A DNA stretch of 64,000 bases from Devosia aurantiaca. GTDB taxonomy: Bacteria; Pseudomonadota; Alphaproteobacteria; Rhizobiales; Devosiaceae. Each line of letters opens with the position of its first letter. The stretch's first letter is position 1. Shown one piece after another: positions 53,792 through 55,293 of this stretch. Made by a program: the position numbers and the translations under genes. Below the pieces are notes generated by a model. The model was not told the DNA's origin and searched no databases. It saw only the letters and a program-made list of their open reading frames with translations. Location: contig NZ_JAALFG010000002.1 of the NCBI RefSeq assembly GCF_011058215.1, positions 62,001-126,000 on the forward strand. Reading direction: 5' to 3'.

Positions 53792-54238
53792 ATGAAGCGT
53801 TTTTTCGAGCGGCACGTGCCGCACCTGCCGCAACGCATGTTCGAGATCGTGTCGGACATGGAAGACTATCCGCGCTTCATCCCCAACTGCCGGGCAATGG
53901 ACCTCCGTCCGGAGCCGGCGGCGCCTGCCGGCACGAACGTCAAGCTCGCCAAGATGACGCTCTATTTCGGCCCCATCACCCAGGCCTATACCAGCCGCGT
54001 GACCCTAGACCCGGTGGCGCGCACCGTTCGCGCCAAGGCGGTCGACGGCCCCTTCAGCTACCTCGACTCCGTCTGGAGCTTCGACCCCGAAGGGCAGGGC
54101 ACGCGCGTCCGCTTCGAGATCGACTTCAAGATTTCCAACCCTTTCATCGCCGCCATTGCCGAACCGGCCTTCGCCATGAAGCAGGAAGAAATTATGCAGG
54201 CTTTTATTGACGAGGCCGATCGACGGTTTGGCGCCTGA
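53792..54238 (+). CDS. RatA/COQ10-family START-domain protein
   Basis: A 148-residue polyketide-cyclase/START-fold protein. HVPHLPQRMFEIVSDMEDYPRF and IPNCRAMDL open the domain; FSYLDSVWSFDPEGQGTRVRF and FEIDFKISNPFIAAIAEPAFA complete it. The group includes mitochondrial COQ10, which handles ubiquinone, and E. coli RatA. In alphaproteobacteria the lipA-ratA order is common; ubiquinone handling is the likelier role. Confidence 0.85.
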   Translation: MKRFFERHVPHLPQRMFEIVSDMEDYPRFIPNCRAMDLRPEPAAPAGTNVKLAKMTLYFGPITQAYTSRVTLDPVARTVRAKAVDGPFSYLDSVWSFDPEGQGTRVRFEIDFKISNPFIAAIAEPAFAMKQEEIMQAFIDEADRRFGA

Positions 54239-54248
54239 TACGAGCAAA

Positions 54249-54435
54249 ACACCCCTTCCTAGCGCCGCTAGGCTCCTCCGTCGCCAAGCTATGCTTGCCT
54301 TCCCCTCTGAGGGGGAAGGTGGGCATCGTGCATTGTCCACGATAGTGCCACAGCCACCCCGTTCACCTTCCCCTTGAGGGGAAGGCAAGCAAAGCTTAGG
54401 CACCCCGCGCCTTAGCGCAGCTCGGAAGGGGGTGT
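54249..54435. repeat. Large hairpin intergenic repeat
   Basis: A nested inverted repeat of about 187 bases. The outer arms are ACACCCCTTCCTAGCGCCGC and, at the other end, CGCAGCTCGGAAGGGGGTGT. Inner arms are GCTTGCCTTCCCCTCTGAGG with its near-exact complement near 54364-54399 (CCTTCCCCTTGAGGGGAAGG), and a small central hairpin (ATCGTG/CACGAT). CTTCCCCT/AGGGGAAG elements of this kind recur between genes in many alphaproteobacteria. Confidence 0.65.
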
Positions 54436-54484
54436 CGGCCTCTTCACGAACTCAATCTATCCCGTTTGTCCTCTCCCCCAGACT

Positions 54485-54785
54485 CCTCCGCTACATTCAC
54501 CCCATCAGCCGGGTGGAGATGGGGTTGCAACGATCAACCGTCCGGCGACAGCCGGGAGGACTCTGTATCGTTACGGAGTCTGGGTCCGTGGACGGGGAGG
54601 CGAAATCTTCCCCTAAGACGCTGCCTGCCAGAAAACCCGGCGCTCCGAGACGTCTTGCGTCTCACATATAAAACTATTCACGAGGCGAAAGCCGTCTCGG
54701 GGCTCCATCACCTGATCATCAACCGGCGCCAGCCCCGACCGGCGCTTCGGCCTGCCTAGAGGCAGGCGGAACGTTCTTTGAACCC
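54485..54785 (+). ncRNA. Candidate structured RNA in a gene-free block
   Basis: No convincing protein gene is seen between 54239 and 54786. The 300 bases after the hairpin repeat contain successive stem-loops: ACCCCATC/GATGGGGT (54499-54525), an outer stem CCGTCC/GGACGG (54538-54543, 54590-54595) enclosing GACTCTGTA/TACGGAGTC (54559-54580), GGGGAGG/CTTCCCC (54594-54613), CCGAGACG/CGTCTCGG (54645-54652, 54693-54700) and the perfect GCCTGCCT/AGGCAGGC (54750-54767). Two stems use G-U pairs that work only for + strand RNA. The last hairpin, then GGAACGTTCTTT, could be a weak terminator. It matches no RNA family I can name. Confidence 0.4.
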
Positions 54786-54786
54786 T

Positions 54787-55293
54787 TCAGTCCGGCTCGC
54801 TGGTCAGCACCTGCATGACCAGGTCAAGCGCCGCATCCACCGTCGCGCGCCGGATCGCATCGCGGCCTAGATCGCCGAACCGATGCTCGATCACCACGGT
54901 CGCAAGGTCCGAAGACACCGCTACATAGACGAGGCCGACCGGCTTCTTCTCCGTGCCGCCATCCGGACCGGCAATGCCGGTCACCGCAACCGCCAAGTCG
55001 ACCTTTGCCGTGTTGCGCGCGCCATCGGCCATCGCCCGCGCCACCTGGTTGCTGACTGCGCCATAGTCGCCGATCAGCCGTGGCTGCACCTGGATCATGC
55101 GCGACTTGGCCGTGTTGGCATAGGTAATATAGCCGCCATAAAACACGGCCGAGCTACCCGCCACATCCGTCAGCGCGGCGGCGATCATGCCGCCAGTGCA
55201 GCTTTCGGCAGTGACCAGCGTCAAATTGCGCTCGGCGAGAAGGTCGATGATCTGCTGGTTGAGAGGCGGCACGGCCTGGGTCTTGATGGTCAT
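54787..55293 (-). CDS. CinA-family C-terminal domain protein (nicotinamide-nucleotide amidohydrolase)
   Basis: A 168-residue CinA C-domain protein, PncC type, converting nicotinamide mononucleotide to nicotinic acid mononucleotide. Motifs are LTLVTAESCTGGMIAAALTD (nucleophilic Ser), VFYGGYITYANTAKSRM and AVAVTGIAGPDGGTEKKPVG. No N-terminal MoCF domain is present. Start overlaps the ispDF stop by one base, so the two are one operon. Confidence 0.88.
   Translation of the reverse strand: MTIKTQAVPPLNQQIIDLLAERNLTLVTAESCTGGMIAAALTDVAGSSAVFYGGYITYANTAKSRMIQVQPRLIGDYGAVSNQVARAMADGARNTAKVDLAVAVTGIAGPDGGTEKKPVGLVYVAVSSDLATVVIEHRFGDLGRDAIRRATVDAALDLVMQVLTSEPD

Follow-up and report, generated by a model that had tools for sequence, protein, structure and literature searches.

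The locus and its reading as an RNA

A block of about 300 nucleotides in the genome of Devosia aurantiaca, lying between two recognisable genes in the window (the whole stretch of 64,000 nucleotides that was analysed), raises the question of whether it encodes a structured RNA and, if so, whether that RNA belongs to a gene or to a mobile intergenic element. The RNA extends from 54503 to ~54780 on the plus strand and is flanked by a RatA-like gene (53792-54238, plus strand) and a CinA/PncC-type gene (54787-55293, minus strand); the top NCBIfam model for the former was the RatA family toxin, with a score under the curated cut-off. The 5' end was placed from a -10-like box and the 3' end from a terminator-like hairpin, and the block of 54485-54785 proposed in the initial annotation is thereby changed only slightly: the RNA itself probably begins at about 54503, with a conserved box 5' of it at 54466. 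The surroundings had been described as conserved synteny, which holds for the two genes, ratA being recognised beside cinA at 25 of 30 cinA loci, but not for the element, which was found beside cinA at only three of the 30.

When the whole window was searched with Rfam 15, which includes models for tmRNA, RNase P, SRP, 6S, HEARO and the group II intron, no match reached the gathering threshold, and 10 loci carrying subfamilies B, C, D, E and other relatives likewise gave no Rfam 15 family at the gathering score. An E-value search of 54200-54900 against Rfam returned weak matches only, far under gathering scores and mostly to microRNA models, and ARAGORN found no tRNA or tmRNA gene in the same interval; tmRNA, RNase P, SRP and 6S had been set aside from the start, and the Rfam and ARAGORN negatives agree. 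The opposite-strand frame that had been suspected of arising by chance does exist (54613-54711, 32 amino acids from a GTG, with MEPRDGFRLV after it); a coding role was rejected because aligned copies carry indels there that are not multiples of three, and we read it as probably a chance frame. A search of openly licensed papers on RNA elements and repeats in Devosia found no description of this RNA family, which is apparently undescribed.

Covariation of the helices and a kissing-loop core

The segment 54485-54785 folded with a z-score of -4.64 on the plus strand and -3.28 on the minus strand, and none of 100 shuffled sequences was as stable on either strand; thermodynamics alone favoured the plus strand only mildly. 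RNAalifold, applied to 16 subfamily A copies, predicted 51 pairs, 21 of them with double changes. A named structure of 52 pairs in seven helices, kissing loops included, was then scored on the same 16 copies; it had 96.5% of cells paired (shuffled mean 90.0), 21 pairs with two-sided change (shuffled mean 8.6) and a covariation score of 0.290 (shuffled 0.158), and 0 of 500 shuffles reached the observed value for any of the three measures, the reference structure being, as in the ortholog-pairing tests below, derived from the sequences that were scored. Sliding the helix partners by 1 to 3 columns left at most 49.5% of cells paired.

The individual helices, all on the plus strand, were supported to different degrees. 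The P1 hairpin (54508-54546; arms 54508-54514 and 54540-54546, alignment columns 6-12 with 38-44) showed two-sided change in four of its seven pairs, with 97.3% of cells paired. P3, the closing helix (54551-54641; arms 54551-54556 and 54636-54641, columns 49-54 with 145-150), was paired in 92.7% of cells and showed two-sided change in no pair, and is therefore weakly tested. In the P4 hairpin (54558-54581; arms 54558-54565 and 54574-54581, columns 56-63 with 72-80) seven of eight pairs changed on both sides, as did three of seven in the P5 stem (54583-54629; arms 54583-54591 and 54621-54629, columns 82-90 with 130-138), whose arms enclose a variable domain. The long P6 hairpin (54642-54703), with an AU-rich loop at 54664-54681, coincides with inverted repeat I2 and has 18 pairs, six with two-sided change. 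A tail hairpin, P7 (54723-54745; CCGGCGC ... ACCGGCGC), follows, and similar, weakly conserved tails follow P6 in other copies. The stems of which the initial annotation had counted at least five are thus supported by comparison of copies. As a side observation, in two otherwise nearly identical copies, L147 and L156 of genome G273, both arms of P1 were seen by eye to have diverged strongly, the changes in one arm compensating those in the other. The possibility that the tail is a repeat of its own was rejected, because it gave a single further match better than E 0.01 in its own genome, the copy in L002.

The loops of P1 and P4 are complementary to each other: the segment AACGAT in the P1 loop (54529-54534) pairs with ATCGTT in the P4 loop (54567-54572). 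This kissing pairing was present in 100% of cells in subfamily A, where one of six pairs showed two-sided change, and it covaries between subfamilies; one relative carries AACGAC/GTCGTT, and other copies carry GCGAC/GTCGC, GGCGAA/TTTGCC or CAGCGAA/TTCGCTG. A motif search placed the loops in 100 of 125 copies, the 25 unplaced ones being 14 of subfamily E or its relatives, which takes in nearly every E copy, and otherwise D, truncated copies and some variants; a kissing pair score of at least 5 was obtained for 52 of 55 unique cognate combinations versus 199 of 550 non-cognate ones. The pairing is shown for subfamilies A, B and C. Within the P1 loop, the pairs drawn by RNAalifold differ from GGTTG/CAACC, which the sequence also permits.

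The strand was indicated by the wobble pairs. G-U cells outnumbered A-C cells on the plus strand in all of five alignments (141:29, 215:37, 164:22, 161:11 and 91:3). A fold computed on the plus strand favours G-U by itself, and the complement served as a control; there the bias was weaker or reversed (36:58, 88:107, 165:59, 129:25 and 29:16, in the same order). The consensus fold was also more stable on the plus strand than on the complement in five of five alignments. The claim of a structured RNA read from the plus strand is thus supported, covariation against shuffled controls and the G-U bias being in agreement.

Upstream box, tail and upstream palindromes

The RNA is preceded by a -35-like box, TTGTCC (54466-54471, plus strand; family consensus TTATCC), called promoter-like solely for its conservation, and by a -10-like box, CTACATT (54491-54497, plus strand), in place of which other copies have CATACT and similar sequences. 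Of 63 subfamily A and B sites, 50 had TTATCC within 70 bp 5' of the RNA; in an equal-length far-upstream control the count was 0 of 63. The pattern TTNTCC - 14 to 22 bp - NANNNT occurred in 88 of 125 copies, a set that contains some genome copies twice, and the spacing was 19 in 49 of the 88. Such a spacing of 19 bp is long for sigma-70, and a sigma-70 consensus scan of the window copy found no promoter. In L259 (G008) and L218 (G027), read by eye, the final codons of the preceding gene run into the upstream box.

At the 3' end lies a terminator-like hairpin with a T-rich tail (54746-54779, plus strand), found both as an inverted repeat and by a terminator scan. The terminal hairpin claimed initially is present as an inverted repeat of 54746-54757 with 54760-54771, 92% complementary over 12 nt; 54752-54769 plus the tail scored as terminator-like on the plus strand, one of two such sites on both strands of the region where 0.5 were expected.

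Adjacent to the RNA but outside it is a palindromic MITE-like repeat (54252-54431), whose arms, 54252-54307 and 54376-54431, are 75% complementary. Of 63 A and B sites, 27 had palindromes with arms of at least 10 bp in the 170 bp on the upstream side of the RNA, whereas the downstream side gave 0 of 63 and a far control 4 of 63; these palindromes are of several kinds. A repeat similar to that at 54252-54431, of ~180 bp, was also seen 5' of the copies in L002, L161, L163 and L182. The distance from palindrome to TTATCC was often 17 to 38 bp, and in the set L161-L265 the linker sequence was common to different loci.

A family of copies in Devosia and related genera

BLAST against the own genome (G000) found five close copies, the window copy included, with 76 to 100% identity; the proposed search for repeats of the block was therefore positive, with 5 matches, as was the proposed covariation search on homologous copies, in which 21 pairs changed on both sides. 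For more distant copies two covariance models, R1 and the broader R2, were used; both describe the P6 3' hairpin domain only, so that genomes lacking this domain are missed, and the hairpin is nearly palindromic, so that both strands can count. At E <= 0.01, R1 gave 18 matches in the own genome, comprising five subfamily A copies, nine of subfamily E and four opposite-strand matches of A copies. The nine E copies, although diverged, keep the layout of an upstream TTATCCCC box, P1, core and long 3' hairpin.

BLAST had suggested that the relatives are mostly reduced to a 70-bp 3' hairpin; this was rejected, since diverged 5' domains in the same layout were present in most of 21 loci. Two of the 21 inspected, L018 and L033, have the upstream box and the 3' hairpin without the P1 region and are possible pseudogenes (the L019 sequence was too short to judge). 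Four subfamily A copies of G001 (L037, L038, L039 and L040) carry an insert on the scale of 80 bp, with a palindrome of its own, in the variable part or in P6. The variable domain between P4 and P6 had the appearance of interchangeable modules: the one that sets L230 and L234 apart from other G028 copies recurs in G015, G010 and G008, which suggests shuffling between paralogs.

R1 matched 63 of 75 genomes of the genus, the highest number of hairpin matches in a genome being 38, a figure in which both strands can again have been counted; R2, built on the same hairpin, matched 89 of 136 genomes of Devosiaceae in 8 of 16 genera. The remaining 12 of the 75 genus genomes had no match with either model, and the RNA may therefore be dispensable or diverged there. 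Among 297 genomes drawn across the order Hyphomicrobiales, nine matched under stricter filters, all nine in the same family. The matches in L149 and L151 were borderline, and the 5' core was not recognised in them. An exact-pattern search returned 16 stretches, 10 in Devosia records, four in a Rhizobiales isolate, one in an Alphaproteobacteria MAG and one in a MAG labelled Opitutus. The last (L064, JANPZY010000001.1, labelled Opitutus sp.) resembles L032 of the Devosia genome G010 closely in both the copy and its nearest flank; JANPZY010000001.1 is probably a mislabelled MAG. A blastn search against plasmid and phage collections gave no match, nor did viral contigs with one exact 21-base pattern.

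Shared loci and replacement of subfamilies

In order to compare positions between species, 88 copies from nine genomes were compared by their flanks with the elements masked; they comprise every copy found in G000 and in its near relative G072 (14 each; CinA 99% identical) and, from the seven other genomes, the stronger matches among those listed. Intergenic position was checked with simple ORF calls and by reading rather than by annotation. Nine sites held the same subfamily in G000 and G072 (four A, five E), whereas at two of the 11 shared sites, where the flanks are conserved, G000 has E and G072 has A, and three of the 14 sites on each side had no partner. The window locus is common to G000, G072 and G001. 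Among the 88 copies listed, at least 19 loci were shared between species, and nine of the 19 held different subfamilies in different genomes; beyond G000/G072, 34 of 64 cross-species pairs differed in subfamily. In 58 of these 64 pairs the RNA resembled the best paralog of both genomes more closely than it resembled its ortholog, as it did in 3 of 11 G000/G072 pairs (L210/L236 was left out of the count as a doubtful locus match). Because loci are shared while similarity follows the genome in this way, we reasoned that the places are old and that the sequences were replaced or homogenised within genomes. The same hot spots may also have been hit independently. Orientation was the same in 62 of 69 cross-genome pairs matched by flank; six of the other seven represent one locus and one is doubtful, and the single opposite-orientation locus speaks for at least one independent hit or an inversion.

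Several alleles lack the RNA. At the site of L163 (G072), the G000 allele is without both RNA and upstream palindrome but keeps the tail, and at the site of L176 (G000) the G072 allele retains the last part of the tail; these alleles look like deletion scars, not pristine sites. At the L258 site the RNA is present in G010, G006 and G095 and absent from six other genomes examined, and in the G008 and G015 alleles the ends of the missing segment are imprecise.

Pairing was preserved between orthologous copies. Across eight loci in G000 and G072 (eight of the nine same-subfamily loci, L178/L188 having been left out for a large deletion), 77 substitutions broke seven pairs; another 23 pairs were altered in one base and stayed paired, and three in both bases; when the 77 were placed at random a mean of 24.8 pairs was broken, with a minimum of 15, and 0 of 1000 simulations was as low as observed. 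Among six B ortholog pairs, 199 substitutions broke 17 pairs, versus a random mean of 61.7 (minimum 48). The structures tested came from the same alignments, which helped the observed values, and the E alignment is without P1. Conserved pairing could also arise if copies derive from a small number of active units, in which case the individual copy need have no function.

Origin and role of the family

The evidence leans towards the block being a gene-like unit that specifies a structured non-coding RNA, ~280 nt long and on the plus strand; it would belong to a multigene family, present in Devosia and related genera, under concerted evolution. By comparison of copies, P1 and P4 are held by loop kissing, the P5 stem and P3 helix close the core, and the long P6 with its AU-rich loop follows. 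Subfamilies replace one another in place, by concerted evolution or in-place replacement, so that copies remain alike within a genome. Transcription of each copy may begin at a conserved promoter-like box of its own and stop at the terminator-like tail. At a guess from the pattern, the folded RNA would then act in trans, probably in the form of a dose-dependent RNP or a protein-binding RNA; a role in trans is suggested by the conservation of fold without conservation of sequence, and by flanking genes that vary in both orientation and identity. A housekeeping role is opposed by the missing matches in 12 of 75 genus genomes, and the partnerless sites (three of 14 on each side), the one opposite-orientation locus and the truncated copies without P1 are points against the RNA-gene reading as a whole.

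Close behind it, and not exclusive of it, stands the possibility that the family is a selfish non-autonomous element of MITE-like or SINE-like type, mobilised by an enzyme that the host encodes, with the RNA or single-strand fold serving that end; we regard this as plausible, if the less probable of the two. Likewise plausible, and to the same degree, is that the subfamilies are successive waves, which re-hit the same intergenic hot spots so that newer elements displace older ones. Dispersed copies, as many as 38 hairpin matches in a single genome, several subfamilies side by side, gain or loss between close species with RNA-lacking alleles, the other subfamily at two of 11 G000/G072 shared sites, the opposite orientation at one locus and the restriction of palindromic repeats to the upstream side (27/63, against 0/63 downstream and 4/63 in the far control) are all what such an element would leave. 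Yet the aligned copies, viewed by eye and with exact unit ends not fixed, showed no shared terminal inverted repeat, and no target duplications were recognised; two RNA-lacking G000/G072 alleles keep part of the tail in the manner of deletion scars; loci are common to several species, with the same orientation in 62 of 69 pairs; pairing is conserved in orthologous copies; and plasmid and phage collections gave no match, nor did viral contigs for one exact pattern. Of the initial proposal, the structured RNA is supported, and the family has features of both a non-coding RNA and a mobile intergenic element: copies are dispersed, gained or lost between close species, and absent from 12 of 75 genomes of the genus, but occupy old shared loci and conserve their pairing.

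Two further explanations appear far less probable. An attenuator, riboswitch or 3' UTR stabiliser acting in cis on neighbouring genes would suit those copies that directly follow a gene end and the overlap of the box with the end of the preceding frame in L259 and L218; however, a leader should keep a constant orientation and position, whereas simple ORF calls at 88 sites gave flanking orientations close to random (28 ++, 22 -+, 20 --, 16 +- and 2 ?+) and downstream genes, by eye, vary within one locus group, which makes a cis role very unlikely. Equally improbable is a structural repeat at the DNA level, a protein-binding or cruciform site in which DNA and not RNA pairs: the long P6 palindrome and the palindromic repeats nearby would fit it, but the excess of G-U over A-C that all five alignments show on one strand, the covarying kissing loops and the more stable consensus fold on the plus strand in five of five alignments argue for RNA. 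A more speculative version of events, rather unlikely as it stands, is that these RNAs are a kind of genetic unit not recognised before, cassettes at fixed chromosomal addresses across a bacterial family, with versions overwriting one another so that the whole set is rewritten without moving, possibly via RNA copying or the upstream palindrome; the folded RNA, besides being the product that is conserved, would then drive its own replacement.

Comparison with known systems

This large structured RNA, which Devosia-type soil bacteria carry in tens of copies, has strong comparative support, is confined to one bacterial family as far as seen and lacks an Rfam entry; it presents a new target for studies of RNA function, and the swapping of subfamilies at shared loci offers a testable case for concerted evolution of RNA genes in bacteria. 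The line between selfish repeat and RNA gene is blurred here, since the same copies look mobile by their distribution and functional by their conserved pairing.

Sibling small RNAs of the LhrC and NgncR_162/163 type have few copies and are base-pairing regulators. According to excerpted accounts, they resemble the Devosia family in having several related RNA genes per genome; the latter differs in its many copies, large rigid fold and in-place replacement. The bcr1-bcr18 repeats of the Bacillus cereus group are described in excerpts of PMC3446304 as lineage-specific dispersed intergenic repeats, some of them transcribed; bcr10 and bcr18 have conserved secondary structure and were proposed to be functional RNA, whereas bcr1-bcr3 are MITE-like (PMC3446304). 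The Devosia family is, like them, multicopy, intergenic and lineage-specific with conserved secondary structure, but it comes from an unrelated lineage, its core is built on kissing loops, the box upstream of it is conserved and its orientation is independent of its neighbours; subfamily swapping at shared loci is a feature of the Devosia family for which the excerpts of PMC3446304 hold no counterpart among the bcr repeats. BRE / bprJ of Bordetella and other Betaproteobacteria also has numerous intergenic copies, overlaps small RNAs and varies in copy number (PMC3110155, in excerpt), but is ~90 bp long, sometimes has several copies per locus and belongs to an unrelated lineage.

The class of 'Mobile/repeat sequence candidates' in a 50-genome ncRNA survey covers multicopy motifs whose orientation to surrounding genes is inconsistent, and is defined partly by association with a transposase, integrase, nuclease or helicase (PMC11109978, in excerpt); the Devosia family shares the inconsistent orientation and differs in having loci common to several species. 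Animal tRNA genes are multicopy, multiply like mobile elements and evolve in concert (PMC4981973, in excerpt), though they are another RNA from another domain of life and essential, while the Devosia RNA is dispensable as far as seen. REP/BIME elements consist of a palindrome of 20-40 bp as the whole unit, whereas the Devosia unit exceeds 200 nt and contains several covarying helices.
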